NCBI GenBank assembly: GCA_002706765.1
Contig: PAJV01000018.1
Coordinates: 62,001-126,000 of the forward strand
From: Gimesia sp.
GTDB taxonomy: Bacteria; Planctomycetota; Planctomycetia; Planctomycetales; Planctomycetaceae
DNA: 64,000 nt
Direction: 5' to 3'
This document shows positions 1,799-58,381 of this stretch, one piece after another. The notes beneath the pieces are model-generated. The model was not told the DNA's origin and did no database searches. It saw nothing but the letters and a program-made list of their open reading frames with translations. Position 1 is the stretch's first letter. Each line of letters starts with the position of its first letter. The position numbers and the translations under genes are program-made.

Positions 1799-1809
1799 AG
1801 GAGCAGTCT

Positions 1810-2088: not shown

Positions 2089-2118
2089 TCTTACTGACAG
2101 ATTCAACAGGAAAACGGA

Positions 2119-2916: not shown

Positions 2917-2949
2917 TATTGTGCGTCGAAAATCACTCAGGCCATATCA

Positions 2950-4494: not shown

Positions 4495-4498
4495 TCCT

Positions 4499-7041: not shown

Positions 7042-7077
7042 CGTACTCCACAGTCACCTGGAATGATTAATTTTTCT

Positions 7078-10723: not shown

Positions 10724-11390
10724 GGTATGCTGCCAGTTGAAGTTGATGTTGTTCTTCCAGGAAATCACACCATTCCTGAATACCGCTTCCTGCCAGGGAA
10801 CAACAGGGAATGACCTTCAGTGCCGGTTGAATTCTCTGGGCATCTGCAGTCACTGCTTCCACAGAAAATGGTACGTGCGGTAATAAATCCAGTTTCGTAA
10901 TCAGCATGGACTGACTGGTGCGGAACATTTTGGGATACTTTCCCGGCTTATCGTCCCCTTCCGTCGTGCTGAGCAGAACGACACGCAGATGCTCTGCCAG
11001 ATCATGCGAAGCGGGACAGACCAGGTTTCCCACATTCTCGATAAACAGAAAATCGACTGCAGGATCACCCAGCGCGGTCAAACCCCGCTGCACCAGCGGC
11101 AGTTCCAGGTGACAGGCTCCTCCGGTCGTCAGCTGCGCGACCGGAACCAGGGGGGCCAGCCGCTGCGCATCGCGGTCGGTTTCCAGATCACCCACCAGAA
11201 CAGCCATCGAACGGCGACCAGCAAACTGCCGTGCCGTCGCCTCCAGTAAACTCGTTTTTCCCGATCCCGGCGATGACAGCAGATTCACAACCAGAGTGCC
11301 CCGGTGGCCAAGACGCTTTCGTTCCGCCTCGGCATCGGCCTTTTGATCTGCTTGCAGATCGCGTTTGACGATGATCGTTTGCCGACTCAT
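10701..11390 (-). CDS. hypB: hydrogenase nickel-insertion GTPase HypB
   Basis: GTPase that with HypA inserts nickel into the hydrogenase large subunit. The 229-residue protein has the P-loop SSPGSGKT, the LVGDLETDRDA switch region, metal/nucleotide motif TTGGACHL, FIENVGNLVCPA and the specificity region ITKLDLLPHV. It lacks the His-rich or CxxCGC N-terminal nickel-storage extension seen in some HypB proteins. Start ATG overlaps the hypA stop. Confidence 0.95.
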   Translation of the reverse strand: MSRQTIIVKRDLQADQKADAEAERKRLGHRGTLVVNLLSSPGSGKTSLLEATARQFAGRRSMAVLVGDLETDRDAQRLAPLVPVAQLTTGGACHLELPLVQRGLTALGDPAVDFLFIENVGNLVCPASHDLAEHLRVVLLSTTEGDDKPGKYPKMFRTSQSMLITKLDLLPHVPFSVEAVTADAQRIQPALKVIPCCSLAGSGIQEWCDFLEEQHQLQLAAYHEPADNC

Positions 11391-11758
11391 GAAGAGACTC
11401 CTTCGCGCGAATCGATTGTTTCCAGCGTAACACTGATCAGCTGCAGATCATCACCCTGAATGACGTCAACGGTCCCGCTCCCGCATTCAGGACAGTGAAA
11501 CTGAAAATCGAGGACTTCAAACTCATGTTGACAGTGAGTACAAACCGCAGTGACAGGGACCAGATCCAGTTTCAACCGGCATTCCACAGAAAAGACATCC
11601 ACGACCATCTCCTCAAACGCGGCTGCAAATAACAGCGGTTCGACTCCCGACAGGTCACCTGCCTGCACGCAGATTTCAGAAACTCGGCCGCCCCCCTGCG
11701 CCTCGACGATTTGTCTGACCTGCTTTAACAGATTCTGAACCAGGGACCGTTCATGCAT
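11387..11758 (-). CDS. hypA: hydrogenase nickel metallochaperone HypA
   Basis: Nickel-delivery partner of HypB, 123 residues. The start is set at 11758 because HypA needs an N-terminal MHE, whose His2 binds nickel; an in-frame upstream ATG would bury that residue. The zinc loop is seen as CTHCQHEF and CPECGSG. The segment with VSEICVQAGDLSGVEP is typical. It overlaps the protease gene by 8 bases and hypB by 4. Confidence 0.93.
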   Translation of the reverse strand: MHERSLVQNLLKQVRQIVEAQGGGRVSEICVQAGDLSGVEPLLFAAAFEEMVVDVFSVECRLKLDLVPVTAVCTHCQHEFEVLDFQFHCPECGSGTVDVIQGDDLQLISVTLETIDSREGVSS

Positions 11759-12233
11759 GTTCAATCTCCCCCTGACTGACAGAGTTGCTGATATCCTCAC
11801 ACATGGCTTCGACCGCAGCGAATACCCTTGCCTGTACCGCTGCTGATAAACTCTCTCCGGAATGATTTGAATGCAGTTCTATGGCCCAGATCCGAACATG
11901 CTGCGGGAGCCTCCCCAACTGTTCTGCCAGCGCAAGCACACCCGTTAAAGACATCTGGTGCGTCCCCGACCAGCGAATCTCATCCAGCTGACCGCAAGGC
12001 CATTCCCATTGATGAATACTTCCCGGTTCACCGGCTCCCTGGCAGGCATCACAAATCAGCAGGTCCCGCCCAGGTTCGATCCAGTCCAGTAAATCAGCGG
12101 GTGTCCGCGCCAGTTTCACACTCACGTGAGAGTACTTGCGCCGCTCAATCTCCCTGGCCATCTCCCAGCCCGCCTGATCGTCACCATGCGGACTGCCAAT
12201 CCCAGCGACCATGATCTGTACCCCGTTTCTCAA
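11751..12233 (-). CDS. hydrogenase maturation protease
   Basis: Endopeptidase that removes the C-terminal peptide from the hydrogenase large subunit after nickel insertion. Its 160 residues show the family nickel-sensing acid in GIGSPHGDDQAGWEMA (usual form GIGNxLxxDDGxG), a second acid in ICDACQGAG, and a His in SGTHQMSLTGVLALAEQLG. The first in-frame start with a ribosome site is TTG at 12233 (AAGGAAG upstream); an ATG at 12212 would also keep the motif. It lies 23 bases after its presumed substrate gene. Subfamily (HoxW/HycI/HydD type) not resolved. Confidence 0.85.
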   Translation of the reverse strand: MRNGVQIMVAGIGSPHGDDQAGWEMAREIERRKYSHVSVKLARTPADLLDWIEPGRDLLICDACQGAGEPGSIHQWEWPCGQLDEIRWSGTHQMSLTGVLALAEQLGRLPQHVRIWAIELHSNHSGESLSAAVQARVFAAVEAMCEDISNSVSQGEIEHA

Positions 12234-12256: not shown

Positions 12257-13549
12257 TCAGTGACGGTCAATTGTGACTTTGAGAAAATGAGTTGAACAAC
12301 TGATACAGGGATCATAGGCTCTTACCAGGTTTTCGCATTTTCGCCCGAGTTCTGCATCTTCCTGACCAGCTGACTCTGTCACCAGGTGTTTGAGGTCGAC
12401 TTCAATTTGTGCCTGATTCTGAGACGTCGGCGGGACAATACAGGCCTCAATGATTTTTCCTTGATCGTCAATCTCATAGCGATGATAAAGCGTACCCCGG
12501 GGAGCTTCGGTCGCAGACTTACCGATCCCTGCCTGCGGGGAATACGATTCCCGTGGTTTGCCTGCAGGATGTTGATCACGCAGAATCGACAACGCTTCTT
12601 CATACGCGTGAACGATTTCCAGGCCTCGCGCAATAATCGCTTTGTGCGGATTGCGACAGACCGGTTCCCATCCGATTTCGTCTGCCAGCTTTCGCGCCTG
12701 CGGAAACAGTTGCTGCCGATTCAAATTGATACGCGATAACGGCCCGAGCAGATAAGGGCGTCCCGTTGACTTACGAAAAGCCTGCAGAGCAGTCGAGTGT
12801 GGCACCTGCCGCTCTTCAAACTCCGCTTCGTACTGATCAACTTCAATCACGTCTCCAAGGCTGGATTTCATCACGCCGTCATTCATGGGATATTCATCCG
12901 GGTGAGACAGCGATATGAATTCGCAATCCGATTCCATTTCCGGAAAATCAAAACCAGCCACCCAGCGTGTGGTTTCCATCGCAGCGTTCAGGCCCCATTC
13001 AAAATCCGGGATCAGTTTCTGAAATTCATTCCGATTGGGAATTCGATAGAAACCACCCACGCAGACATTCACCGGATGAATGGCCCTCCCCCCCAGCAGG
13101 TCGACCAGCTGATTGCCATGTTTTTTCAGCCTCAGCCCACGATTGACCTCTTCGGGAAACTGCTTCGCCATCTCCAGCCCGCTCTCAAAACCCAGAAAAT
13201 CCGGGGCATGCAGTAAATGCATATGCAAGCCATGACTTTCAATCCATTCACCACAATATAACAGCCGACGCAGACGCCGAATCTCTGGGGAAACGGTTAC
13301 TTCCAATGCAGCTTCGAGAGCATGCACGCTACTCATCTGGTATGCCACCGGACAGATGCCACAGATTCGCGCGGTGATATCCGGCGTGTCTTCGAGAGGT
13401 CGTCCCCGCAACAAGGCTTCAAACAGACGGGGCGGTTCGTAAATTTCCAGGCGGACTTCTTCGATCGTGTCACCACTCATGCGGATGAACAGCCCCCCTT
13501 CTCCCTCCACACGGGTCAATGTTTCCACTTTGATCTTGCGGTCACCCAT
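12257..13549 (-). CDS. hydA: [NiFe] hydrogenase group 3b, large (alpha) subunit
   Basis: Catalytic subunit carrying the [NiFe] centre, 430 residues. The N-terminal nickel motif is RICGIC (Cys63, Cys66) and the C-terminal one is DPCISCSTH (Cys415, Cys418, His421); the nine residues after His421 are the tail expected to be removed by the neighbouring protease. The RVEGEGG start and the HydB-G-D-A gene order point to the NAD(P)-linked sulfhydrogenase-like group 3b. The ATG at 13549 overlaps the small-subunit stop by one base; a longer frame upstream runs antisense-free into the small subunit and is not used. Confidence 0.94.
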   Translation of the reverse strand: MGDRKIKVETLTRVEGEGGLFIRMSGDTIEEVRLEIYEPPRLFEALLRGRPLEDTPDITARICGICPVAYQMSSVHALEAALEVTVSPEIRRLRRLLYCGEWIESHGLHMHLLHAPDFLGFESGLEMAKQFPEEVNRGLRLKKHGNQLVDLLGGRAIHPVNVCVGGFYRIPNRNEFQKLIPDFEWGLNAAMETTRWVAGFDFPEMESDCEFISLSHPDEYPMNDGVMKSSLGDVIEVDQYEAEFEERQVPHSTALQAFRKSTGRPYLLGPLSRINLNRQQLFPQARKLADEIGWEPVCRNPHKAIIARGLEIVHAYEEALSILRDQHPAGKPRESYSPQAGIGKSATEAPRGTLYHRYEIDDQGKIIEACIVPPTSQNQAQIEVDLKHLVTESAGQEDAELGRKCENLVRAYDPCISCSTHFLKVTIDRH

Positions 13550-14337
13550 CAGTATGGCTCCCCGTTTCGATCCAGTAAACGTCGGCTTTCCTCGCGAAAG
13601 GCAGGTGCATTGTTGTTGAAATTCTGGAGACTGTTGGAAATTTCCTGCTTCGAGGCACCGTCCTGCTCCATTTGTGATGTCAGGCTCACCAGGTTGGATT
13701 GCGAGGCTGGTCCGAAGCAGCCGTAACAACCCCGGTTGTAGCTCGGACAAAGTGCATTACATCCTGACTGGGTCACGGGGCCCAGGCAGGCAATTCCCTG
13801 TGCCACTGTGATGCAGACCGTACCACGGCGTTTACAATCCAGGCAGACACTGTGTCCGGGGGTGCGTGGCGTCCGTCCTGCCAGCAGCGACTGAATCACT
13901 TCAATCAGCTGATATTGATTGATCGGGCAGCCTCGCAATTCGAAGTCGACGGTTACATGATCTGCGATGGGTGTTGACTGATCTAACACCTCAATGTATC
14001 CGGGACTGGCATACACAGCCCGCATGAACTCAGCAGAATCGGCTCCGTTTCTCAACGCCTGAATTCCACCAGAGGTCGCGCAGGCACCGATGGTCATCAG
14101 AAAGCGGGAATCTCTGCGAACCTGCTGGATCCGGGCTGCATCGTGGGGCGTAGAAATCGATCCTTCAATCAGTGCAATATCATACGGGCCTGCTTCCATA
14201 CGACTCGTGGCCTCGGGGAAATAGACGATCTCTAAGGCATCGGCGACGGACAACAGCTGATCCTCGGCATCCAGCAGGGAGAGCTGACAGCCATCACAGG
14301 AAGCAAATTTGAAAACGGCCAGTCTGGGTTTTTCCAC
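13549..14337 (-). CDS. hydD: [NiFe] hydrogenase group 3b, small (delta) subunit
   Basis: Electron-transfer subunit with iron-sulfur clusters next to the [NiFe] site; 262 residues. The proximal-cluster motif CDGCQ is at Cys14/Cys17, followed by GACATSGG, ELRGCP, CLDCKRRGTVC and the C-terminal GCNALCPSYNRGCYGCFGP. The start is judged to be GTG at 14337: GGAAGG lies about 9 bases upstream, it follows the hydG stop by two bases, and the family's N-terminus begins just before the CDGC motif. An ATG 117 bases further up would add a non-conserved extension overlapping hydG. Confidence 0.92.
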   Translation of the reverse strand: MEKPRLAVFKFASCDGCQLSLLDAEDQLLSVADALEIVYFPEATSRMEAGPYDIALIEGSISTPHDAARIQQVRRDSRFLMTIGACATSGGIQALRNGADSAEFMRAVYASPGYIEVLDQSTPIADHVTVDFELRGCPINQYQLIEVIQSLLAGRTPRTPGHSVCLDCKRRGTVCITVAQGIACLGPVTQSGCNALCPSYNRGCYGCFGPASQSNLVSLTSQMEQDGASKQEISNSLQNFNNNAPAFREESRRLLDRNGEPY

Positions 14338-14339
14338 GT

Positions 14340-15206
14340 TCAGAGTCCTTCCACTTTTAAATAGGGGGAAATCTGATCGTAGCGAAAGACCGGCCCATCC
14401 TTGCAGATGAATTCCGGCCCCAGCTGACAGTGTCCACACAAACCCACCGCGCACTGCATATTCCGTTCGGTCGAAACCCAGATCTGCTCGCTGGTCATTC
14501 CCCGCTGAAGCGCAGCACGGGCAGTAAAACGCATCATCAGATCCGGACCACAGATCAACAGGATCGTCTCCGCAGGATCAAATCCGGTGAGCCGCTCCAG
14601 CAACTGAGGCACAACTCCCACATTCCCGCGCCAACCGGGACTCGACCGATCAACGGTTTCTCTGATCTCCAGCCCCTCTGCTCTCCACCGATCATACTCC
14701 CGCGTGTAGACCCGCATCTCGGGTGTGCGTGCGCCGTACAATAAATGCAGACTCCCATACTCGTCTCTCTGGGCCAGCAGCTGATAAATGAAGGGACGCA
14801 AAGGGGGCAGGCCAATTCCCCCGGCCACCAGAATCACATTTTTTCCCCGACAATCCTCGCGCGGCCAGCTTGTACCAAACGGACCTCGCAGCCCCAGGGT
14901 ATCACCCACTTTCAACGCAGCGATACTGCGCGTCACATTGCCGGCCAAACGAATGGTATGAGCCAGGGTCCCACAGTCAGCAGGATCACCGCTCATCGAA
15001 ATCGCCGATTCGCCCGCACCGGGAATATACAGCATATTAAACTGCCCCGGTTCAAAACGATAAGACTGCGCAGCGGCAGCATCTCTCAGCGACAGCTGAT
15101 ACGTGGCCACCCCGCTGACTTCAGCAGCGATCTCATGAATCACTGCCGTTTTCGCTACCCAGATGCTGTCTGATTTCTCAGCCTGCTTTCCGACTGTCGA
15201 ATTCAT
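14340..15206 (-). CDS. hydG: hydrogenase gamma subunit, FAD/NAD(P)-binding reductase
   Basis: Diaphorase module of a group 3b hydrogenase: a ferredoxin-NADP reductase-like protein passing electrons between NAD(P)H and the iron-sulfur chain. About 288 residues: FAD-binding barrel ([20 protein letters not shown]), NAD(P)-binding domain ([14 protein letters not shown]) and a C-terminal 2Fe-2S-type cysteine set in [17 protein letters not shown]. The ATG at 15206 overlaps the hydB stop as ATGA. Whether it prefers NADP or NAD cannot be read from the sequence with certainty. Confidence 0.92.
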
Positions 15207-16327
15207 GACTCCGATTCCCGAATCGCGTTCACTTCCTGTGTCAGATCGATGCCGACCGGACACCAGGTAATACAGCGGCCACAACCAACGCACCCTGATG
15301 TACCGAACTGATCAATCCAGGTCGCCAGTTTATGGGTTAACCACTGCCGATAACGATTGCGAATGCTGTTTCGGACCAGCCCCCCGTTCATATAACTGAA
15401 ATCCAGATTAAAACAGGAGTCCCACTGTCGTTGCCGTTCCACATGATCTCCCGTCAGATCGCTGACTTCTTCAACCGAACTGCAGAAACAGGTCGGACAG
15501 ACCATCGTACAGTTCGTGCAGGACAGACAGCGCTCTGCCACATCATCCCACCGGGGATGTTCCAGATTGGACATCAGCAGGTCTTTGATATCCGTCGTAT
15601 CAAATCTTCGTTCGATCTGGTCAACAGCCTGCTGTCGCGCCGCGTTTGCCTGTGTATCCTGTTCCGGCGAGACTTTCATGGTTTGCAGATCCGACAGAAT
15701 CTCCGCACCGGCAGCAGTTGCCACCTCAACCAGGAAACCATCGGGCAATTCGGTCAGCGCCAGATCAAAACCCGCTTTGCAGCGAGGCCCCGTTTCCATG
15801 GAAGTGCAAAAACAGGTCGAAGCGGCCTGCGTGCAGTTCACGGCGATGACCAGCGCCTGACTGCGACGCTGCTCATAAATCGAATCAACATAAGGTCCCC
15901 CCGTGAAAACACGATCCTGTATTTTCATCGCAGCCAGTTCACAGGCTCGAACTCCCAGAAACGCATAGCGGGGTGTTTCTTCTTTCGCTTCCTGAAACTG
16001 CCAGCCCTCTTCCGTTCGATCAGCTCTCGCCAGTGTGCTGACCGGCGGAAACAGCTGCTTCTTCCAGGAACTCGGGCCAACCACATAACCAAAGAGCGCA
16101 TTATCATCGCGTCTCACCAGGCGGTATTTTCCGGGTTCCTGTTGATCAGTCCAGCCACGGGGCAAATCATCAATTGATGAGAGTTGACCATACACAATGG
16201 CTTCCTGATCGATCGTAGGACCAATCACCTCGTAACCACGGGAAATCAGCACCTCAAAAAGCCTGGCAAATTCATCCAGTGTTAAAAAACAGGTTTCAGG
16301 ATCGACCGACTGCACGGAATCATTCAT
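15203..16327 (-). CDS. hydB: hydrogenase beta subunit, 4Fe-4S protein
   Basis: Iron-sulfur relay subunit of the group 3b hydrogenase (sulfhydrogenase beta family), 374 residues. Two ferredoxin-like cluster motifs are seen: Cys267-x2-Cys270-x2-Cys273-x3-Cys277 and Cys346-x2-Cys349-x2-Cys352-x3-Cys356 ([12 protein letters not shown]). Additional cysteines at 165, 172, 174 and 183 ([11 protein letters not shown]) match the conserved middle region of this family. First structural gene of the operon, overlapping the cNMP-binding gene upstream by 8 bases. Confidence 0.93.
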
Positions 16328-16823
16328 GGGTACCTCCCTGCTTCAGAGTATGTGCTTCATCAGAAACAGCATACATGTCGAGCACCTGTAGACGACTGGC
16401 AACCAGCCGCTGAGATAACGCCAATGACATCCGCCGCATGATCTGGTAACCGATATCATGATCCTGCTCGCAAACTTGCGCCAGCGCTGCTGCGTCGATG
16501 GCAATCACGCGAGTCTGTTCCACAGCAACCACGGTCGCGGTCATCTCCCCCTGCTTGAGAAGGGACGACCAGCCGAGCAGATCGCCTTCTTCCAATGTCA
16601 AAACGGGTAAACAGCCACGTGCAGGAATGGTCATGCAGATCTCAACGCGACCGCTGAGAATGATATATAGATTCGGATGCTCTGTGCCTTCGGTAAAGAC
16701 CGTCTCGTTGCGGGAAAAATCCTCAAAACGGGAAATGGCAGCCAACTGCTGTTGCTCTCCTGCGGACAAATCGGAAGTGAATCGGAGTTGCTGCATTATT
16801 TCCTGAAGCTGTTGAATCTCCAT
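16320..16823 (-). CDS. cyclic nucleotide-binding domain protein at head of hydrogenase operon
   Basis: A 167-residue protein that is essentially one Crp-type cNMP-binding beta-roll (FTEGTEHPNLYIILSGRVEI, LEEGDLLGWSSLL, ATVVAVEQTRVIAID). No DNA-binding helix-turn-helix follows; the C-terminus is a short helical tail. Such a protein commonly heads group 3b hydrogenase operons, where it may regulate activity rather than transcription (inference). It shares 8 bases with hydB, so is co-translated with the hydrogenase. Confidence 0.85.
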   Translation of the reverse strand: MEIQQLQEIMQQLRFTSDLSAGEQQQLAAISRFEDFSRNETVFTEGTEHPNLYIILSGRVEICMTIPARGCLPVLTLEEGDLLGWSSLLKQGEMTATVVAVEQTRVIAIDAAALAQVCEQDHDIGYQIMRRMSLALSQRLVASRLQVLDMYAVSDEAHTLKQGGTHE

Positions 16824-17129
16824 CGCAGCCTCTCAGTCAAGTTGTTGAAAAACAGTCAGGCAGAACACTTCGATTCTAACCGGCCCGTTCGTACTCGTCC
16901 AGCAACCAGAATTTGTAACGACCGCTTTATGACAACTCCCTGCCAACCTCAGGAATTCCCCTATCAGAAATTACGACTTTATCCTAACAGTAATTCAACA
17001 AATAAAATCGTGAATTGTTCATTAATGTTGGATTCTGAAATTAGCTCTCGTATTGGTACGATATTGATCCTGCAATTCATTACCTGTTTATTGTGCTCAA
17101 ATAGATCAGTCAGGAGTAGATCAGAAATT
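16824..17129 (+). promoter_or_regulatory. divergent intergenic region, hydrogenase operon / usp pseudogene
   Basis: About 306 bases between the head of the hydrogenase operon (reading left) and the usp-like pseudogene (reading right). It is A/T-richer in its right half and holds one copy of the GGG/CCC palindrome described separately at 16948-16964. No open reading frame here looks coding. I infer that it contains the operon promoter; no confident -35/-10 pair was picked. Confidence 0.6.
16948..16964. promoter_or_regulatory. GGG/CCC palindromic operator candidate, copy 1
   Basis: Right half CCCTAT is perfect and the left half is weak (CTCAGG against ATAGGG); the centre reads GGAATTCCCC. It lies about 125 bases upstream of the first hydrogenase-operon gene and about 165 bases before the usp-like pseudogene. 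Weakest of five copies; accepted because its placement matches the other members of the proposed regulon. Confidence 0.4.
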
Positions 17130-17468
17130 ATGCATCGATTCAAAAATATTCTTGTGGGTGTTGACCTGTCATCAGGAGATCACCTCGTTTCCGAAGAAGT
17201 TTAGACTGCCTCCCTGGAAGCAGTAAATCGCGCTATCTGGCTGGCCAGGTCGAATTCTGCAGAACTCACGTTCTTTTTTGCTCTCGATGTTGGCGCTGAA
17301 ACTCAACGGATGATTGAAGAGCCGAATGAGAGGGAATCAAACCTTTCACATCTCATTCGACGCCTGCAAGTCTGCCATCCCAGAGTTTGTCGAATCAATC
17401 CCAGGCAGATACTTAAAATACAATGGCTGAATCGACCTTTCAGGTTGGTTGATTTAGGAGATTTATAA
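17130..17468 (+). pseudogene. universal stress protein (UspA-like) pseudogene
   Basis: The ATG at 17130 opens a typical Usp N-terminus (MHRFKNILVGVDLSSGD), but a TAG stops it after 24 codons (17202-17204). The same frame then continues with clear Usp-like helix and strand sequence (SLEAVNRAIWLARSNSAEL, then TFFFALDV) up to a TAA at 17466-17468. The C-terminal half of the domain, with the usual G-x2-G-x9-GS ATP loop, is missing. I read this as a nonsense-mutated and truncated gene. It stands divergent to the hydrogenase operon, a usual place for such genes in hypoxia loci. Confidence 0.72.
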
Positions 17469-25386: not shown

Positions 25387-25503
25387 CGTGTACCTCACAT
25401 CGCGAGTCGTATTAATTGATCAATGCCTGAAGTCAGGAAGTTGGGTGATCACGTCAAGTTAACACGTACTATTTCGGAGTGCAAATTACTTTTTCAGATT
25501 CCT

Positions 25504-50411: not shown

Positions 50412-51836
50412 TTAATCGGATTCCCGGGCTGCGATGATATGCGCCTTTGTGCCTTGTCCCGGGCTTGAATCCAGCCAGAACTTTCCATTGATGAGTGAAA
50501 GTCGATATTCAATATTACTCAGGCCCATTCCACCTGGCTCAGTTTTCTGCTGATCAAATTGCTGCAGATCGAAGCCGACCCCATCATCAGAGACCGTGAT
50601 CTCTAATTCCTGGTTCGATATTGAATGCATGCCGACCTGTGCGTGTGTGGCTTGAGCGTGTTTAACAACGTTAAACAGAATCTCGCGCACACATTCATAC
50701 AGGACAATTTTTGTCAGTTCCGCCTGCGGACTGACAGCCTGATCCAGATCCAGCGCGACAGTCAAATTGTACCGTTCCTGCATATTATGCGCCAGCCATT
50801 CCAATGCCATCGGCAGACCTTCTTCATGCAGTACGACCGGGTTCAGCTCAGCCGTCAGGGAACGGGTAACTTCGATACTCTGGTTCAACAGTTCATCCGC
50901 ACGCGCGAGTGTCAGTTTTTCTGATTCTGAATGGACTCCCTTCCTGGCGATTCCCAGATGAATTCGCACGCCGATCAGCAATTGCTGAAGATGGTCATGC
51001 AGAATATTGGCCAGTTGGCGACGTTCCTGCTGTGCAGCGACAGCCACTGCCCGTGACAGTTCGGCCTGCTTCTTTTCGCCCTGCTTTCGCTCGCTGATAT
51101 CAGCAATAATGCCGGCAAAGATCTCAAACTGAGGCAGATCCGTCACCGACAGTTCGATCGGGATCAAAGTGCCATCACGATGAGAGGCCTGCAGTTCTCG
51201 TCGGGCTCCTACAATATAGGAAATCCCTGTTTCGAGGTACTGGGTGATAAACTGATCATGATGTTCGCGGATCGGATGTGGTGTGAGTAAACTGACATTC
51301 TGCCCGATGATTTCAGCAGCCGAATATCCAAACATCTTTTCTGCGGCTGAATTAAATGACTGGATTATTCCCCGGCGGTTTATCGTAATGACCGCTTCGA
51401 TAGCCGATTCGACAATCGCATTCAGTTGAGCCTGTGTCTGACGTAATTTGCTGGAGACAGCCCGCTCGGTTCGAATACGCTGAACGGAATTCCGGAACAG
51501 TTCACGATCGATCGGTTTAATGAAGTAATCAGCAATCTCATTTCGGAATGCGAGAACCATACTCTGCACTTCTGAGCGTGATGTAATGATCATCAACTCT
51601 GCATTCTTCGCCTGTTGCTGAATTTCGGGGAGAAATTCGTCTGTATTTCCATCGGGCAATTCATGTTCCAGAATGATCAGAAAGTAATCCGACCAGTTTT
51701 CCCGGCTCATCAACTGTTCCCGGGTTTCCACAGCATCAACCTGAAATCCTTCGGCTGAAATAATCTGGATGATCTGCAAGCGCGATTCCGGATCAGGCTC
51801 GGCCAGCAGTACAGATAACCTCTCTTGATCTGACAT
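50412..51836 (-). CDS. hybrid histidine kinase: pseudo-receiver, FixL-like PAS, HisKA_3/HATPase
   Basis: A 474-residue cytoplasmic sensor kinase. Residues 1-125 form a receiver fold in which the phospho-acceptor Asp is Glu57 (LIILEHELPDG), with Lys107 kept. Residues about 135-250 are PAS; it has REHHD (His193) and IVGARR (Arg213) where FixL has its haem-binding His and oxygen-sensing Arg. The dimerisation helix has His280 in LANILHDHLQQL (HisKA_3, NarX/DesK type), and the ATPase shows NVVKHA (N389), SDDGVGFD and GGMGLSNI. Likely partner is the NarL-type regulator 1.4 kb upstream. Haem binding is inference. Confidence 0.9.
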   Translation of the reverse strand: MSDQERLSVLLAEPDPESRLQIIQIISAEGFQVDAVETREQLMSRENWSDYFLIILEHELPDGNTDEFLPEIQQQAKNAELMIITSRSEVQSMVLAFRNEIADYFIKPIDRELFRNSVQRIRTERAVSSKLRQTQAQLNAIVESAIEAVITINRRGIIQSFNSAAEKMFGYSAAEIIGQNVSLLTPHPIREHHDQFITQYLETGISYIVGARRELQASHRDGTLIPIELSVTDLPQFEIFAGIIADISERKQGEKKQAELSRAVAVAAQQERRQLANILHDHLQQLLIGVRIHLGIARKGVHSESEKLTLARADELLNQSIEVTRSLTAELNPVVLHEEGLPMALEWLAHNMQERYNLTVALDLDQAVSPQAELTKIVLYECVREILFNVVKHAQATHAQVGMHSISNQELEITVSDDGVGFDLQQFDQQKTEPGGMGLSNIEYRLSLINGKFWLDSSPGQGTKAHIIAARESD

Positions 51837-51890
51837 GATTCTGTCTCTTTAAGCCATTACGGTATCAGGGGTGATTCAGCCTGTGATATA

Positions 51891-52067
51891 TTAATTGTGA
51901 GCGAAGATACTCTGGGGGTTTCCCCTATGAAATAACGGCTGATTCTCCGATTTCACAAATGCCACTGCTTGTATAAGCTGATCATCACTGGCATCCCGTG
52001 ACAAATCAGAGACAGCGAGATTGACAGTCTGTCGAATCTGTATTTTCAGTCTGTTTTCCTGATTCAT
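51891..52067 (-). CDS. doubtful small ORF upstream of histidine kinase
   Basis: A 58-codon frame (MNQENRLKIQIRQTVNLAVS...) with plausible composition, ending 54 bases before the kinase gene on the same strand. No homology is recognised, no ribosome site is clear, and its end overlaps operator copy 2, which speaks against it. Listed so that it can be checked. Confidence 0.2.
   Translation of the reverse strand: MNQENRLKIQIRQTVNLAVSDLSRDASDDQLIQAVAFVKSENQPLFHRGNPQSIFAHN
51912..51928. promoter_or_regulatory. GGG/CCC palindromic operator candidate, copy 2 (histidine kinase)
   Basis: Right half CCCTAT perfect; left half CTGGGG differs from ATAGGG at two positions; core GGGGGTTTCCCC. Located about 76 bases upstream of the histidine kinase start and 290 bases before the BON gene on the other strand. 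Suggests autoregulation of the two-component system. Confidence 0.55.
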
Positions 52068-52217
52068 TATCTCAACAACCCTGATGTTCCTGCAGTCGAA
52101 AACAAGCGTAACGACAATCAGACCACTAAATATCCTGATTTCACGGAAACGACCCTGCCACGATCTTAAAATACCTGTTTTCGTTGCCAGAATCATACTG
52201 CCTGAAAGGAGAATGCG

Positions 52218-52487
52218 GTGAAACTGCAGAACAAACCTCGAATTCCGTTACACTCCCATTCGGACCTGCAGCTCACATCACAGATAAGAAGGAGATTGCA
52301 GTCTACAGGATATGCAGGCCTGACTTCAATCTGGATTGAAGTCCACTCCGGAGAAGTTTTTCTGGAAGGAACAGTTGACTCTTATTTCCTGAAGCAGATG
52401 GCACAGGTGAGAGTCCTGGCAATGAGCGATGTCAGAAAAGTTTATAATACGATCATAGTGAGCTCGCCGGGCCCGTGTCCAAAATAA
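52218..52487 (+). CDS. BON-domain protein
   Basis: An 89-residue soluble protein forming one BON domain (about 18-82): SQIRRRLQSTGYAGLTSIWI, GEVFLEGTVDSYFLKQMA, VRKVYNTIIV. BON domains occur in osmotic and envelope stress proteins and may bind lipids. The start is GTG at 52218: AAAGGAG lies 7 bases upstream, while the nearby ATG at 52213 hits a stop at once. No signal peptide, so it is probably cytoplasmic. It converges with the rhodanese-like gene. Confidence 0.8.
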   Translation: MKLQNKPRIPLHSHSDLQLTSQIRRRLQSTGYAGLTSIWIEVHSGEVFLEGTVDSYFLKQMAQVRVLAMSDVRKVYNTIIVSSPGPCPK

Positions 52488-52554
52488 TATAAGCCACTGC
52501 CCAGCCAGGAACCGCGACTACTCAGAGAGAAAAGTCGCTCATCTGGTTGAGACG

Positions 52555-52648
52555 GCTTCGCATCACCTTTAATCATAGCGACTCTCAAGCTATCATTCTC
52601 GGTCCAATTGATCCTTGAGACGCTACAGTAAATCGAGACACAGTCTAA
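52555..52648 (-). repeat. 94-bp dispersed repeat, copy A
   Basis: Aligns without gaps to 57314-57407 over 94 bases with 67 identical positions. Best conserved blocks are CATAGCGNCTCTCAA, GAGACGCT and GACACAGTNTAA. On the minus strand it begins at the stop codon of the rhodanese-like gene (the stop lies inside the repeat), so it would be the start of that 3' untranslated region. AGCGACTC pairs with GAGACGCT with one mismatch, so a hairpin is possible. Confidence 0.75.
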
Positions 52649-52992
52649 TAACGGATTCTCGATGCGCCATATTCAATCGGCAGTTGAGCAGCCCGCCAGT
52701 CTATTTTTCCCGGCTCATAGTCGAAAACAGTCTGATATCCCAGTTCCAGGAGACACATTGCTGCCTGGCCTGACTGATGGCATTCATAATTCAGGCTGTA
52801 GACCACAATGGTATTGCTGCGATCAGGAATCAGACGCAATACACGCTCATTGAAGAAATCGCTCAGTGGCACATTGATGGCCTGGGGAAGATGATAATCC
52901 TGATATGCAATCTCGGGTAATACCTCGACCAGCTTGAGGTCCAGGCAGGTGTTCAAGAGATCCTGTAACTCATTTCTGCTGATGGTCACCAT
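52645..52992 (-). CDS. rhodanese-like protein lacking the usual first cysteine
   Basis: About 115 residues of rhodanese fold: VEVLPEIAYQDYHLPQAINVP is the substrate-entry segment (LPEIAYQDYHLPQAINVP), followed by NTIVVYSLNYECHQSGQAA and MCLLELGYQTVFDYEPG. The active-site loop has Ser where many relatives have Cys (VVYC), but a Cys four residues on is kept, so sulfur-transfer activity is uncertain. The ATG at 52992 is preferred to a GTG two codons earlier, with AGGA upstream. Operator copy 3 lies about 145 bases upstream and repeat copy A directly 3'. Confidence 0.78.
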   Translation of the reverse strand: MVTISRNELQDLLNTCLDLKLVEVLPEIAYQDYHLPQAINVPLSDFFNERVLRLIPDRSNTIVVYSLNYECHQSGQAAMCLLELGYQTVFDYEPGKIDWRAAQLPIEYGASRIRY

Positions 52993-53135
52993 TAACACGC
53001 GATCCTGATAACTGAAGTGAAGTACCTGAAGAGAATTCCCTCACACTAACTCTGTTTTCAGTTTAACAGCCAGAACTGAAAGCTATCTATCGGGTTAAGG
53101 ATGTGTTAATTACCGGGTAAATTTCGATTGACCCT

Positions 53136-53152
53136 ATCGGGAAATACCCTAT
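53136..53152. promoter_or_regulatory. GGG/CCC palindromic operator candidate, copy 3 (rhodanese-like gene)
   Basis: ATCGGG-AAATA-CCCTAT; left half has one mismatch to ATAGGG. An additional CCCTAT lies just to the left (53132-53137), giving tandem half sites. It sits about 145 bases upstream of the rhodanese-like gene and beyond the 3' end of the response regulator gene. Confidence 0.6.
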
Positions 53153-53208
53153 TGAATCCCCGCCAGCTCCCAACACCCCAGAACAAAAAGCCAGATACAC
53201 TGCAGTTA

Positions 53209-53874
53209 TCAGTTTTTTTCCAGGACCCATTGAATTGCATGGCGAGTCAACGCGGTCGCGTTTTCCAGATTCAGTTTGTGTTTGATGTTCTCCCGATACG
53301 TCTCTACCGTTTTAGCACTTAAGTTCAGTTTCTGAGCAATCGAACGTGTCGTTTCGCCTTCCCCGATCTGCTCAAACACTTCCAGTTCACGATCTGAGAG
53401 TCGTTCGATGGGAGACTGATCGGAATAGTTATCTGAGCCGATAGATCGACAGATCATGCGTTCTGTCGCCTCGGGACTCAAAAATACTTTTCCTTTTAAG
53501 ACCTGGTAAATCGCTTTTATCAACTGTTCCGGTGCCTGCTGCTTGTTTACAAATCCCAGGGCACCAGCGCGCAGTGATCGCTCTGCAAATAAAGTTTCAT
53601 CATGCATAGACACGGTCAGCATCTTAATTTGACTGAACTGGGCTTTGATATCTTTGATTAATTCCAGTCCGCTGCCATCTTTCAGTGAAATATCAATGAT
53701 CATCAGGTCTGGTGGATGCTCCATGATTTGCCGGATGGCATCAACTTTACTGTCGGCCTGTCCACACACTTCCAGGTCATCCTGATGTTCAATCAGTCGT
53801 GAATATCCTTCCCGGACGATGGGGTGATCATCGACGATCATCACCTTTACCTTCTGCTGTTTGGAATGGTTCAT
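53209..53874 (-). CDS. NarL/FixJ-family response regulator
   Basis: A 221-residue DNA-binding response regulator. The receiver (about 8-125) has acidic pair Asp15/Asp16, phospho-acceptor Asp61 (LMIIDISLKDG), Thr87/Ser89 and Lys111. The LuxR-type helix-turn-helix is at about 155-215 (LSDRELEVFEQIGEGETTRSI, split as ELEVFEQIGEGETTR; LSAKTVETYRENIKHKL). It lies in the same locus and strand as the hybrid kinase and is its most likely partner. I propose it binds the GGG/CCC palindromes found here, by analogy with DosR, also of this family. Confidence 0.92.
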   Translation of the reverse strand: MNHSKQQKVKVMIVDDHPIVREGYSRLIEHQDDLEVCGQADSKVDAIRQIMEHPPDLMIIDISLKDGSGLELIKDIKAQFSQIKMLTVSMHDETLFAERSLRAGALGFVNKQQAPEQLIKAIYQVLKGKVFLSPEATERMICRSIGSDNYSDQSPIERLSDRELEVFEQIGEGETTRSIAQKLNLSAKTVETYRENIKHKLNLENATALTRHAIQWVLEKN

Positions 53875-53965
53875 TTACTGATTTCTAATACCAATGCTCG
53901 AACTGTAAAGTGAGGACACTCAACCATGGTTGGCCAGACACAGAAACCAGGCCAGGCTGCATCCG

Positions 53966-53980
53966 AGTGCACTTTGCACT
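53966..53980. promoter_or_regulatory. palindrome upstream of response regulator gene
   Basis: AGTGCA-CTT-TGCACT, perfect 6-bp arms with a 3-base spacer, about 92 bases upstream of the regulator's start. It differs from the GGG/CCC palindrome, so the regulator gene may be controlled by something else. The surrounding gap (53875-54116) holds no gene. Confidence 0.4.
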
Positions 53981-54116
53981 AAATGAGTATACCCGTCGAT
54001 TTGCTGCACCGGGAAGCGCAGGCTCTACCGATTCCGAAGTAAATTCTCTGAAAAAACAACACGCTTAAGATCACGCTTTTGTAGAATCACGCGGAGAGGC
54101 CGAAATCGAATCACAG

Positions 54117-54602
54117 TCATTCGTGAGTGGAAGATTTCTCGAAAGCTTCGCGAACTCGTTCGATTTCACGCTTCTCATTGGTGCGTAAATCGTCCAGAAG
54201 TCCCTGAAATTCCTGCAAAGCTTCATTCCAGCTCCGGAACGGTGGATTCGACAGTTTCAGGCGCGTGCTGAAATCATCAACTCTGCAGAGAAATTCCTTA
54301 TGCTGTTCTTCAAAATCAGGAACCATGATACAGAACCCCGGCTCTTCCTCCATCACCGGTTTAAAGTAGCCTTCCTGTTCTTCGTCTAGAAAATGTTTTC
54401 TCAGAAGATCTCGCAAACCTTCCATTCGCGTTCCCATTTCGCCATATTTGGGCAGGCCATGTTCATACAGTTCGCTCCACCATCGATGCAAATCTTTAAT
54501 GTGAGACAAAATCTGCTCATGTTCATCCAGCAGATACTGCAGATGCTCGTGTGGATTATCTTTAAACTCCTGTGATTGCTTTAATTGATTTCGATGTTTC
54601 AT
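54117..54602 (-). CDS. hemerythrin-like domain protein
   Basis: About 161 residues, all helical, resembling the hemerythrin/HHE cation-binding family: HEHLQYLLDEHEQILSHIKDL, split as LLDEHEQILSHIKDLHRWW; GLRDLLRKHFLDEEQEGYF; DFEEQHKEFLCRVDDF. These give the H-x-E, HFxxEE and H-x4 type ligands of a di-iron site binding O2 or sensing iron/redox. Start at ATG 54602, preceded by AAAAGGGG; a further ATG seven codons up would place that site inside the gene. It fits the oxygen-related theme of the locus. Confidence 0.75.
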   Translation of the reverse strand: MKHRNQLKQSQEFKDNPHEHLQYLLDEHEQILSHIKDLHRWWSELYEHGLPKYGEMGTRMEGLRDLLRKHFLDEEQEGYFKPVMEEEPGFCIMVPDFEEQHKEFLCRVDDFSTRLKLSNPPFRSWNEALQEFQGLLDDLRTNEKREIERVREAFEKSSTHE

Positions 54603-55326
54603 AGCGATATCACCCCTTTTCATTTCTGAAGTCTATAAGACGCTTCCGTGAAATCTTACATCACTGCGATTTGCTCATCACCGTGGATCAAAGGCCTGCA
54701 TCCAACACGAGAGAAAAAAGCTGATCGACGGACGATGCTTAAGCAGCACTACCCAGTGCGAGGTGGAAAGCTTTCGCCGTTGATATTCCGTGGCATGGCT
54801 CCAGCAGAATATCAGAACGCGCTCAGCCCACTTAACCCTGATGTATGAGGAAATACACCTGGAGTGTCGGGGATTGATTCCGGTCTGTGCTGTTTCCGAC
54901 AGAAGAAGAATACCCTTTGCAATTTCCTGACGCAATTTTCTGACGAAGACAAATATCAAAACGCAATGGCTCCACATCACTCTCTCTGTTTCATTTTACA
55001 CATTGATGTCAACAGGGTCCAGCAAATCATTTTTCAGTGAAACCGGATTTCACTATAATAGGATGAGTCTGGAATTCATTTATCCGCACTATGGGGAATT
55101 TCCCTATGCAGTAAACGTAGCCTGGTCCTATATCGGGTCTGTTTGACAAAATGATAGCATTTATGAACTTCACAAACAGACTGAATTCCGGAACAAGATC
55201 AGGAAGGCAGATTACAGCTGCGGGTACGCTTCTGCTCGACCAGTGGAAGTAGCCTGCTGCAGTAGAACTGTCAGTTTCTGTCATGCTTGAAGAATTCAGA
55301 ATTTATTATTCAACAAGGAGTGTTCA
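54603..55326. promoter_or_regulatory. long intergenic region upstream of the baeRF-type gene
   Basis: About 720 bases without a supported gene; frames up to 100 codons have non-coding composition. Near the right end: a promoter-like TTTTCA-17-TATAAT (55031-55036, 55054-55059) whose spacer contains the hairpin AGTGAAA-CCGGA-TTTCACT, and operator copy 4 at 55091-55107. The length is unusual for this compact locus and could hide a small RNA. Confidence 0.45.
55091..55107. promoter_or_regulatory. GGG/CCC palindromic operator candidate, copy 4 (baeRF-type gene)
   Basis: ATGGGG-AATTT-CCCTAT, one mismatch in the left half; core GGGGAATTTCCC. Lies about 220 bases upstream of the baeRF-type gene. Confidence 0.65.
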
Positions 55327-56487
55327 ATGCAGACTTTAACACATGATGAACTGAAAGCGCTGACTGACTGGGAACAGGGTCCCAGTATTTCGATTTACTT
55401 ACCTCGGCACCAGGCTGTTTCGGAGCTGGGGAAAGATGCAATCGTTCTGCGAAATATGCTGGATGAAGCTGAAACCAGACTTCAGAACCAGGGGTTCGGG
55501 ACAGCAGAGTCCCGGAAATTTCTGGAACAGGCACGAAACATACAGAATGATGATTCTTTCTGGGAACTGGGTTCTGCCCAGGGGCTGTGTTTACTGCTGG
55601 CACCAGGTGCCTTTCACCAGTTTGATCTGCCTTACCAGTGTCCGCAAATGCTCACAGTCGATGACGCATTTTATATCAGCCCCTTATTTTATAAAGTGTA
55701 TGAAGATGACCGGTTTGATGTACTGGCCATCAGCCCCAAAGCGGTGCGGATGATTCGACATGAAAATGGATCTGTCTCGGAAATCGACCTGCCTGAAAAT
55801 ATGCCTGCCAGTCTCGAAGAGTATTCGCAGGGGATTGAGCTGGAAGAATCAATACAGCACCACTCCGCCTCGTCCGGTCGAGCCGGGAGAGAAGTCGCGG
55901 GGATCATTCACGGGCATGGTGTAGCAAAAGAACAGACTGAAAAACTGCTGGGTGATTACTACGAGTTTCTTGCCCGGCAACTGGAAAATTCTCAGGGCAG
56001 CGGTTCTCTGCCGTTAATCCTGGCCTGCGCCGAAAAACAGCAGAGTCTGTTTCGGAAACATTTCCATATGAATCATCTGCTACAGGAGGGGATTGCGACT
56101 TCACCAGATCAGCTGAGTGCACAGGAACTGATTGAACTGGCCCGGCCGGTAATTAAATCCCATGCTGAAAATTCACTTCACAAAGCGCAGGAACAGTTTA
56201 AGAATCATCTCGGCACGTCACGTATCTCACACCAGCTCGAAGAAATCCTGCAATCGGCAGATCAGGGTCGTGTCGAAATGCTGTTTGTGCCGATCGGATC
56301 TGAGCGCTGGGGACAGTTACCGCAGGACGGTGAGCTGATTGAAACCCATGACAGCAAGTCGCCGGGAGACACTGCCCTGCATAACCGTGCTATCCGGGAT
56401 ACGTATCGACATGGGGGGACTCCTTATGTCATCAATGCTGAAGACATGCCCGATGACCAGCCACTACTCGCTTATTTCCGCTGGTAA
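55327..56487 (+). CDS. baeRF-type (bacterial archaeo-eukaryotic release factor-like) protein
   Basis: A 386-residue soluble protein of the eRF1-like baeRF group, comparable to Rv2629 of the mycobacterial DosR regulon. Visible blocks: SISIYLPRHQAVSELGKDAI (N-terminal domain), FWELGSAQGLCLLLAPGAFHQFDLP split as GLCLLLAPGAFHQFDLP, YKVYEDDRFDVLAISPKAVR, then RAGREVAGIIHGHG and a C-terminal segment (GRVEMLFVPIGSERWG, DTALHNRAIRDTYRHGG). These proteins are thought to act at ribosomes or on stress-related translation; activity here is not shown. AAGGAG lies 7 bases before the ATG. Confidence 0.75.
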   Translation: MQTLTHDELKALTDWEQGPSISIYLPRHQAVSELGKDAIVLRNMLDEAETRLQNQGFGTAESRKFLEQARNIQNDDSFWELGSAQGLCLLLAPGAFHQFDLPYQCPQMLTVDDAFYISPLFYKVYEDDRFDVLAISPKAVRMIRHENGSVSEIDLPENMPASLEEYSQGIELEESIQHHSASSGRAGREVAGIIHGHGVAKEQTEKLLGDYYEFLARQLENSQGSGSLPLILACAEKQQSLFRKHFHMNHLLQEGIATSPDQLSAQELIELARPVIKSHAENSLHKAQEQFKNHLGTSRISHQLEEILQSADQGRVEMLFVPIGSERWGQLPQDGELIETHDSKSPGDTALHNRAIRDTYRHGGTPYVINAEDMPDDQPLLAYFRW

Positions 56488-56538
56488 TCCAGGGAGCGCA
56501 AGTGGTAAATCATGCGTTGCTGCTGTCGATTTCAAAAA

Positions 56539-56575
56539 AAGGTGTGCCACAATATTTGAATTTGTGGCACACCTT
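56539..56575. terminator. bidirectional terminator between baeRF-type and Hsp20 genes
   Basis: Perfect 14-bp stem AAGGTGTGCCACAA / TTGTGGCACACCTT with a 9-base loop, between two converging genes. An A-run precedes it on the plus strand (a T-tract for minus-strand reading). Confidence 0.85.
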
Positions 56576-56604
56576 GATTTTGATCAGATTCTGCGCCGAT
56601 TCAA

Positions 56605-57138
56605 TCACTTTGCAACCGGTTTCACATTAATTTTGTGCGGTTTGGTTGACTCACACTTCGGCAGCGTGATTGTCAGCACGCCATTGTCACAGCTCGCTTC
56701 AATCTGATCTTCTTCGACTTCACAGGGTAACGTCACCGATCGGGAAAAACTGCCGGAACGTCTTTCAATACGATGATACGTTTTGTTCTTTTCTTCCTGC
56801 TCTTCTTTGCGTTCTCCGGTAATTCGCAGCAGATTCCCGGTAACCTCCACATTGATTTCTTCCGGCTGAATTCCGGGAACGTCCATCCGGACTTCAATAT
56901 GGTTATTGGTTTCCGATAGATCCAGAGTTGCAGCAAACCCCTGTGTCAACCAGCCGTTTCCAAAGTCGTCGGAAAATCGATTCAGCAGATGATCCATCTC
57001 ATCCCGAAACGACAGAAAGGGAAATCGCCCCATCAGAGAGCTCATGTCCTGCGGAAACCGTGACTGTGTCCTGGACGGCACTTCATTCTTTAAATCCTGC
57101 TTTGGTTTTTTCTTCTCTGTAGATACAGTCGTTGCCAT
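56605..57138 (-). CDS. small heat shock protein Hsp20
   Basis: A 177-residue alpha-crystallin-type chaperone that keeps unfolding proteins soluble. The alpha-crystallin domain (about 75-170) shows HIEVRMDVPGIQPEEINVEV (VRMDVPGIQPEEINVEVTG), LLRITGERKEE, FSRSVTLPCEVEEDQIEA and GVLTITLPK, with an I-x-V tail (KINVKP). The N-terminal 70 residues are charged and variable. It lies in the stress locus, as HspX does in the DosR regulon, but has no GGG/CCC palindrome of its own; it could be read from the small gene upstream. Confidence 0.95.
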   Translation of the reverse strand: MATTVSTEKKKPKQDLKNEVPSRTQSRFPQDMSSLMGRFPFLSFRDEMDHLLNRFSDDFGNGWLTQGFAATLDLSETNNHIEVRMDVPGIQPEEINVEVTGNLLRITGERKEEQEEKNKTYHRIERRSGSFSRSVTLPCEVEEDQIEASCDNGVLTITLPKCESTKPHKINVKPVAK

Positions 57139-57313
57139 AAATCATTTTCTCCTATAAAAGATTTTCGTACAGAATACATGGCTGAATTCTCAGCGTGAAT
57201 TTAGAACCGTCTCACCACTCTATGCACGCAATGCGCAATCCAGATCTCCACCTGTCGCTTCTCCCAGGTGTCCTGTGTCTGGATCTGACAAACTTTCCTT
57301 CTCTGCCCCTGCT

Positions 57314-57407
57314 GAAGCGCATCACAGTTCACCATAGCGTCTCTCAATCGATGGCACTCGATCTCTCTGCCCCTGGAGACGCTCCAGTACAACGGGACAC
57401 AGTTTAA
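57314..57407 (-). repeat. 94-bp dispersed repeat, copy B
   Basis: Second copy of the element at 52555-52648 (67 of 94 identical, no gaps). It starts 5 bases past the stop of the small His-rich gene on the minus strand and ends about 175 bases before Hsp20. AGCGTCTC (57336-57343 region) is exactly complementary to GAGACGCT further on, and ATCGA/TCGAT forms an inner hairpin, so the RNA can fold. Confidence 0.75.
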
Positions 57408-57412
57408 ACTGT

Positions 57413-57667
57413 TTAGAAGCAGTCGTTCTGGATGTGCTTTGCCAGAATCTCTTTCAGCCGAGCGATATTTGCTTCTTCCTGAGTCTTAATATCTTTCCAG
57501 AAGCGTTTCAATTCTGCGTGACCGCCCGCATTGGCGATATATTGATCGCAGCGCCATAGTGCATCCAGCCTCTTACTCAATTCATGAATCATATCGTGAT
57601 CATGATCTGCACATCCTTTTGTTTCGCCAATATGTTCCATCTGCCGTTCTGCTACCATTGTCATCAT
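57413..57667 (-). CDS. small His/acid-rich helical protein, unknown function
   Basis: An 84-residue soluble protein, mostly helical, with a His/Asp cluster (CADHDHDMIHELSKRL) and a second charged helix (AELKRFWKDIKTQEEANIARL). No family recognised. The His/Asp/Glu pattern could bind metal (speculation). AAAGGAG precedes the ATG-ATG start, a strong site. It reads left, away from the CBS gene; operator copy 5 lies between, about 115 bases upstream, so both genes might be controlled together. Confidence 0.7.
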   Translation of the reverse strand: MMTMVAERQMEHIGETKGCADHDHDMIHELSKRLDALWRCDQYIANAGGHAELKRFWKDIKTQEEANIARLKEILAKHIQNDCF

Positions 57668-57779
57668 GCACTCCTTTTCTGATCGAGTTCGTTTAATAGA
57701 GATAAGACATACATCACTCTCTTATCAGAATATAAATTCTCGCGCCAGGAAAGAAATCAGGGGGGATTGTGATTCATGG

Positions 57780-57796
57780 ATAGGGATATCCCCTAT
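57780..57796. promoter_or_regulatory. GGG/CCC palindromic operator candidate, copy 5 (CBS gene)
   Basis: ATAGGG-ATATC-CCCTAT: both halves perfect, the best copy in the window. It lies between the divergent small His-rich gene (about 115 bases) and the CBS gene (about 150 bases). Confidence 0.7.
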
Positions 57797-57943
57797 AAAA
57801 GCAGTCGGTTCATTCACCATTCAAACGGTATTTACATCCTGTGCCTGAGCGTATAAGTTGGAATACAGTAAGGGGGAACGGCTTCAATGCCTGCCCATCT
57901 GGTATTCATCTGCAACTTCAACAATCAGAAAAGGAGATAAATC

Positions 57944-58381
57944 ATGACAGTCGGTCGTATTTGCTCAAGAGAAGTTGATCTGGTAGATACCGATGAATCA
58001 GTCCAGGTCGCTGCAGAACGGATGAATTCCCGTAATGTCGGGACTCTGATTGTGCTGGATGAAGAAAAACATCCCATTGGGATGATCACAGATCGCGATC
58101 TGGCATTACGGATTGTCGGAAAAGCACGAGACCCCATTGAGACCCTGGTCTCTGATATCATGACCAGGTTCCCGGATAACGTCAGCGAAGAGACGCCCAT
58201 TGAAATCGCGCTTTCAAAAATGAGAGCAGGCGGTTTTCGCAGACTTCCGGTAGTCGATGATGAAGGAAAACTGATCGGCGTGCTGACTCTGGATGATATC
58301 CTGGAACTGCTCAGTACCGAATTCACAGAAATCGGCAGGTTAATCAAGAAAGAGAGCCCGACCAGTCTGGCAGGATATTAA
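57944..58381 (+). CDS. Hrp1-like CBS-pair protein
   Basis: A 145-residue protein consisting of two CBS domains (about 7-60 and 72-125): VQVAAERMNSRNVGTLIVLD, PIGMITDRDLALRIVG, AGGFRRLPVVDDEGKLIGVL, DDILELLSTE. Size and plan match Hrp1 (Rv2626c), the CBS protein of the mycobacterial DosR regulon. A GGAG site lies before the ATG. The ligand cannot be told from sequence. It differs from the CBS protein beside the ATPase in length and sequence. Confidence 0.9.
   Translation: MTVGRICSREVDLVDTDESVQVAAERMNSRNVGTLIVLDEEKHPIGMITDRDLALRIVGKARDPIETLVSDIMTRFPDNVSEETPIEIALSKMRAGGFRRLPVVDDEGKLIGVLTLDDILELLSTEFTEIGRLIKKESPTSLAGY

Follow-up and report, generated by a model that had tools for sequence, protein, structure and literature searches.

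Low-oxygen dormancy regulons are known mainly from actinobacteria, with a few from proteobacteria and myxobacteria. In the DosR (DevR)–DosS–DosT system of mycobacteria and the OsdR–OsdK system of Streptomyces, a NarL-type response regulator works with a haem-type kinase; DosS and DosT are GAF kinases. A NarL-type regulator and a kinase of predicted haem type are also found together in a 64,000-nucleotide stretch of a Gimesia sp. genome, referred to below as the window (positions 62,001–126,000 of contig C18, PAJV01000018.1; the genome has 7.9 Mb in 78 contigs). The window carries hydrogenase genes at 6–17 kb and a cluster of stress genes at 50–58 kb. Its comparison with related genomes indicates that this locus is probably a low-oxygen survival regulon that works in a DosR-like way, with a different sensor and a different operator.

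The likeness to DosR is one of gene families. Hsp20, CBS and Balon-type baeRF proteins are targets of DosR and predicted targets here, and in Mycobacterium smegmatis the dos regulon also includes the hydrogenase Hyh (PMC8125079). The low-oxygen-induced Hyd3 genes of that organism, msmeg_3931-3927, adjoin by number a DosR-type cluster, msmeg_3932-3955 (PMC2799521). The DosR and OsdR operators are GGG/CCC palindromes, as is the one in the window, but the spacing is not the same: the window has GGG-N5-CCC, whereas in the OsdR site AGGGCCGATCGGCCCT GGG and CCC stand eight bases apart (PMC5069765). The sensor differs as well, being a FixL-type PAS kinase in place of the GAF haem kinases of the DosR system. 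Several usp (universal stress protein) genes lie under the operator in the DosR regulon, while here only a usp remnant adjoins one.

Other described systems share some of these features. Myxococcus xanthus has NmpRSTU, a two-component regulon for low oxygen whose targets include USP, CBS, hemerythrin and P-type ATPase genes; it differs in its NtrC-type regulator and its control of a cbb3 oxidase, and neither a baeRF nor a group 3b hydrogenase appears in the available parts of that account (PMC11841059). In Burkholderia cenocepacia, the lxa locus is a cluster of stress genes, USPs among them, that is reported to be raised at low oxygen. FixLJ likewise pairs a haem PAS kinase with a LuxR-type regulator, and the PAS of FixL is the closest solved relative of the one in the window. 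FixLJ differs in that the window kinase has a HisKA_3 core, the regulator resembles FixJ weakly and the targets are others. Among the matches listed from the open-licence literature, subscription papers being mostly outside this scope, no low-oxygen regulon of Planctomycetota was found.

The evidence for shared control is a palindrome approximating TNGGGRAWTYCCCNA, a predicted operator present in five copies in the window, all given here on the plus strand. One (51913..51928) lies 76–77 bp before the start of the sensor kinase gene (50412..51836, minus strand) and 292 bp before a gene for a BON-domain protein (52218..52487, plus; Pfam 3.2e-13). The next (53137..53152) is 138–139 bp before the gene for a rhodanese-like protein (52645..52998, minus; Pfam 5.3e-09), and a third (55092..55107) is 222 bp before the baeRF gene (55327..56487, plus). 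The site at 57781..57796 stands between two genes, 114 bp before one for an 84-residue protein (57413..57667, minus) and 148–150 bp before one for a two-CBS protein of 145 residues (57944..58381, plus; Pfam 1.8e-28). The 84-residue protein is an open reading frame (ORF) that is kept in relatives and has no Pfam or NCBIfam match; the gene for the small heat-shock protein Hsp20 (56605..57138, minus; Pfam 3.1e-28) adjoins it on its 3' side. The fifth copy (16949..16964) lies far from the stress cluster, 125–126 bp before the cyclic-nucleotide-binding (cNMP) gene that opens a four-subunit group 3b-type hydrogenase operon (12257..16823, minus; Pfam, NCBIfam and PDB matches), between that operon and the usp remnant (17106..17342, plus). 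The remnant contains an internal stop; across 79 residues it shares 41% identity with a two-USP protein that the same genome encodes. The cluster also includes genes for a NarL/LuxR-type response regulator (53209..53874, minus; Pfam) and a hemerythrin-like HHE protein (54117..54623, minus; Pfam 6.6e-08). A preliminary description had named these genes apart from that for the 84-residue protein, the usp-like pseudogene and an operator-like palindrome; every gene was recovered from the ORF list and Pfam, and the pseudogene and the palindrome both proved genuine.

Within the 7.9-Mb genome the pattern TNRGGRWWTHCCCTAT has six exact matches, the five window sites and one inside an ORF, a count that is circular for those five since the pattern was built from them. 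Allowing one mismatch raises this to 31 matches over both strands (reversed control, 12), the majority inside ORFs. An even-spaced form, TAGGGGAWWTCCCCTA, was rejected: with two mismatches it occurs at 18 places in eight genomes compared with 31 for its reversed control, and because an alignment showed it to be mis-centred and over-strict, it was replaced by the odd 15-bp form.

A stronger case comes from orthologous promoters. A pattern derived from the five window sites only was scored over 300 bp upstream of genes at loci from 15 other congeneric genomes, the window being left out and no training site reused. The orthologues covered were those of the kinase (14 genomes), the rhodanese (13), the cNMP gene of the hydrogenase operon (14) and the CBS protein (9). 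With up to two mismatches, the palindrome is found in 49/50 orthologous promoters (kinase 14/14, rhodanese 12/13, cNMP/hydrogenase 14/14, CBS 9/9) and in 30/458 upstream regions of other ORFs at the same loci; with one mismatch, the figures are 28/50 and 2/458. The reversed pattern with two mismatches appears in 0/50 and 4/458. Fisher values for such counts are overstated by shared ancestry, and one genome per apparent clade was therefore aligned, with the window included and clades judged from sequence identities. The palindrome is the most conserved 15-column stretch in all four promoters, in two of them sharing first place with windows offset by no more than three columns, and pairwise identity is 84, 74, 86 and 76% at the palindrome versus 43–46% elsewhere in the promoters.

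Scans of whole genomes give a related picture. Six genomes together contain 35 sites of the relaxed form TNGGGNANTNCCCNA, compared with 22 for the reversed control. Eleven of the 35 are at promoters of the module (two in G000, three in G002, three in G013, two in G008, one in G012 and none in G010), and two of those in G002 were found by the scan before their genes had been identified. One turned out to be the hydrogenase promoter and the other (L326) the promoter of the CBS orthologue, which is divergent from a gene that reads as alcohol-dehydrogenase-like. By longest-ORF gene calls, the remaining 24 sites comprise 20 in ORFs and four in other intergenic DNA. The placement of the sites is non-random; their excess is modest. 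One GGG..CCC palindrome accounts for three of the 24: it recurs, once in each of three genomes (L321, L334 and L337), in the leader of a gene that reads as rpsO-like.

The sensor kinase combines receiver, PAS, HisKA_3 and HATPase domains (Pfam), with no Pfam match to GAF. For its PAS domain the first seven PDB matches are FixL entries (best 8.1e-25), followed by DosP. The haem-ligating histidine of FixL is kept in the window kinase and in 14/14 congeneric core kinases, and all have arginine at the position of the distal Arg220. Across aligned PAS domains the histidine is present in 25/27 and the arginine in 27/27 (29 loci were given, two of which had no match). Second-copy kinases at L143 and L144 (in G014 and G016) have tyrosine in place of the histidine, and in G016 the regulator copy adjoining the second kinase is broken. 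By these residues and matches, the sensor is predicted to be a FixL-type PAS of the O2 type. Beside the kinase promoter in two families are small genes that read as CsrA-like (L131, 10018-10230; L298, 2929-3384).

By PDB scores the regulator resembles DosR, VraR and NarL about equally (3.7e-26 for DevR, the first match, 6.3e-26 for VraR and 8.5e-26 for NarL); FixJ is weak at 3.8e-11, and the best NCBIfam model is MctR. At two more distant loci, L300 and L193 (57% and 58%), the regulators share the recognition helix KTVETYRENIKHKL. Exact TNGGGRAWTYCCCNA sites number three at L300 (19.9 kb) and two at L193 (18.6 kb), each locus having one in the 300 bp that precede its regulator gene. The regulators of L072, L216 and L298 (49–51%) instead have the helix VHTI(D/E)THREKLR, and these loci carry a variant palindrome, TGGYGGAWTYCRCCA; L072 and L216 have it without mismatch, L298 with one. 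L072 and L073 (in G021) have the variant about 130 bp before baeRF, as does G289, where the site has one mismatch. Exact copies number three in G040 (one before baeRF), two in G049 (both in ORFs) and one in G000 (in an ORF). In distant loci, the type of operator thus appears to go with the recognition helix of the regulator.

The genome of L216, G289 (4.6 Mb), which we guess to be a planctomycete, has four exact TGGYGGAWTYCRCCA sites and none for the control. Of the four, three fall within 14 kb at one cluster that encodes a P-type ATPase, USP, HPF, SPFH, phosphoribosyltransferase, CBS, baeRF, lactamase-rhodanese, the 84-residue protein, the regulator, Hsp20 and a PAS kinase. Two of these three sites had suggested the variant; the one at the P-type ATPase had not. 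A control of the same kind may extend in distant relatives to the P-type ATPase, USP, HPF, phosphoribosyltransferase, baeRF and CBS genes of this cluster. P-type cation ATPases adjoin operator-like sites at L163 (1499-4324), L294 (4446-7217) and L072 (3202-5919); in mycobacteria, CtpF belongs to the DosR regulon, a parallel to these ATPases.

The idea that the regulator subfamily might mark the gene set in phyla other than this one was also considered and rejected. The window set is present in 1/80 loci, some of them on short contigs, these being the best 80 of at least 522 confirmed regulator relatives and no census. The regulator branch also occurs in places without the window gene set; the distant loci L072 and L216 have a similar one.

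The reason for placing the hydrogenase and the stress cluster in one regulon, despite the distance between them in the window, is the linkage of baeRF to the hydrogenase in relatives. The baeRF gene is present in 10/16 congeners (59–68% identity), and in all ten it and the hydrogenase operon, led by the cNMP gene, run divergently; each time the palindrome precedes the cNMP gene. A BON gene separates the two in G010, and the contig end falls in hyhB in G006. CBS is present at seven of the ten loci together with a paralogue of the regulator, fragmentary in one case, and Hsp20 at five. Kinase and regulator occur in 14/16 congeners, four of them without baeRF; at the cut-offs used, neither was detected in G011 and G015, both fragmented assemblies. 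Kinase, Hsp20, BON, rhodanese and regulator stand together in at least eight loci (L131, L132, L133, L136, L137, L139, L140 and L141). One congener, G008, has the window arrangement without baeRF at L127 and its baeRF at the hydrogenase (L061). These arrangements indicate that hydrogenase and stress cluster share one gene set, which moves between two loci and keeps its operator.

The baeRF protein (Pfam baeRF_family3, 3.5e-26) is a divergent member of the Balon superfamily of ribosome-hibernation factors. A profile of 11 relatives matches 8rd8 chain B at 1.7e-40; we take this chain to be Balon, its label in the table being methyl-accepting chemotaxis protein. It also matches MSMEG_1130 Balon at 7.3e-06. 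These profile matches to structures of the family of Rv2629 and MSMEG_1130 contrast with the NCBIfam ribosome hibernation factor model, for which the score (1.8e-31, 110 bits) is far below the 330-bit cut-off. Neither GGQ nor NIKS was seen in the window sequence. Stress operons are a frequent location of Balon genes, of which one mycobacterial copy is near Hrp1 (PMC10901736).

For the hydrogenase, the closest PDB entry to the large subunit is archaeal sulfhydrogenase 1, presumably the group 3b prototype. Sulfhydrogenase alpha, beta and delta models top the NCBIfam lists, all below their cut-offs, and the enzyme is best assigned as a four-subunit NAD(P)-linked sulfhydrogenase type of group 3b. 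Its maturation (hyp) genes are at 5965..12233 on the minus strand. The cNMP protein that opens the operon (16320-16823), in congeners too, consists of a cyclic-nucleotide-binding domain only, with no helix-turn-helix match in Pfam. In the homology lists Hsp20 is not especially HspX-like and the CBS protein not especially Hrp1-like, with Rv2626c at 4.2e-08 far down the matches of the latter.

The preliminary description had proposed a counterpart of the DosR regulon. That proposal stands for content, namely Hsp20, CBS, Balon-type baeRF and hydrogenase, and is unsupported for descent, given the sensor, the operator spacing and the usp genes. The overlap in rare families that it had seen is one at the level of large families only. 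Its parallel with the M. smegmatis hydrogenase holds, and the shared control it had proposed is now well supported by comparative genomics through the orthologous promoters and their best-conserved stretch. Of the genes before which it had proposed to look for the palindrome, those for the hydrogenase and CBS carry it; the intact usp genes of this genome lack it and Hsp20 has no site of its own. The best reading of the sequences is that the resemblance to DosR is one of content, not of ancestry, and that the regulon was independently assembled.

As a mechanism, loss of oxygen would empty the haem PAS, upon which the kinase would phosphorylate the regulator. The phosphorylated regulator would bind the palindromes and activate the promoters that bear them. 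Raised group 3b-type hydrogenase and maturation genes could then dispose of reducing power, the Balon-type protein could park ribosomes, Hsp20 and CBS proteins could serve protein and energy homeostasis, and increased kinase expression would provide feedback. A broader proposal, for which the chances seem evenly balanced, is that Planctomycetota have a dormancy regulon of their own in which a FixL-type sensor and a NarL-type regulator couple oxygen loss to ribosome hibernation and hydrogenase redox disposal through a dedicated operator, that this operator changed with the recognition helix in distant relatives, and that the DosR set was assembled more than once. If true, the set would represent a general bacterial answer to oxygen loss, with ribosome hibernation, a small chaperone, CBS proteins and a 3b hydrogenase as its recurring functions. 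Harmless aquatic bacteria could then serve to test what Balon-type factors do when oxygen is lost.

Several observations weigh against a low-oxygen regulon run by this kinase and regulator. In the window the regulator gene lacks an operator shortly before it, the HHE gene has none in its 400 bp upstream, and none directly precedes Hsp20. All five intact usp matches of the genome lack the palindrome, and the candidate of an operator at usp genes was rejected for this genome. The genome-wide excess of the relaxed palindrome is modest, and a FixL-like PAS is no proof of haem binding. L193 and L300 have the same operator and neighbour genes unlike the window set, and the same-helix loci L299, L301 and L302 have few sites or none. 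With one mismatch, TGGYGGAWTYCRCCA occurs 20 and 18 times by strand in G000 (control 2 and 4), a genome with the other regulator type. Such one-mismatch sites are common everywhere, so only placement speaks for the variant.

These points bear unequally on the alternatives. The regulon could be genuine and respond to another cue, such as nitric oxide, carbon monoxide, redox state or energy starvation, as a general quiescence programme. Hsp20, CBS, BON and Balon-type genes are found in many stress operons (PMC10901736), and the receiver domain of the kinase may take further inputs; the FixL-type PAS with its conserved haem histidine and the operator at the hydrogenase promoter in every congener scored make this rather unlikely. 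That the palindrome is bound by a different regulator, with kinase and regulator as mere neighbours, would fit the regulator gene without an operator of its own and the same-branch loci L301, L304 and L306 that lack the operator. It is harder to square with the palindrome in the kinase promoter of all 14 congeners scored, or with exact operators upstream of the regulator gene at L193 and L300, where the recognition helix is the same, and we consider it improbable. Descent from a common DosR regulon, or transfer from actinobacteria, is very improbable: DevR heads the PDB matches of the regulator and the functional families are alike, but VraR and NarL score practically the same, MctR is the best NCBIfam model, a FixL-type PAS takes the place of the GAF haem kinase and the operator is spaced differently. 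A chance neighbourhood of common stress genes scarcely deserves credence, even though each family is widespread on its own, given the linkage conserved in relatives, the similar set at the distant L072 and L216 and the outcome of the promoter motif test (49/50 versus 30/458). A low-oxygen regulon thus remains the preferred reading.

Further features of the window lie outside this argument. Two intergenic regions of the stress cluster share a 90-nt direct repeat that is 73% identical (52559-52648 and 57318-57407). A second two-CBS gene, encoding 168 residues (5433..5939, plus; Pfam), lies between an alternate ATPase and the hyp genes; it has no operator upstream, and membership in the regulon is not claimed for it. 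The alternate (N-type) F1F0 ATPase operon, above the NCBIfam cut-off, is located at window positions 26-5386 and in L162, on the window's own contig to the left of the window. It adjoins phosphoenolpyruvate (PEP) synthase, a second HHE protein and an ADP-forming acyl-CoA-synthetase-like gene, and ATPase, PEP synthase and HHE genes are contiguous in the 11 congeneric loci covering them. An operator at PEP synthase and the alternate ATPase is not claimed either, the candidate sites being degenerate (one or two mismatches) and present only in G000, G008 and G014 of 13 loci. Elsewhere, the ORF at 24901-25398 encodes a C-terminal domain of the type VI secretion system immunity protein Tdi1 (Pfam 1.2e-14).

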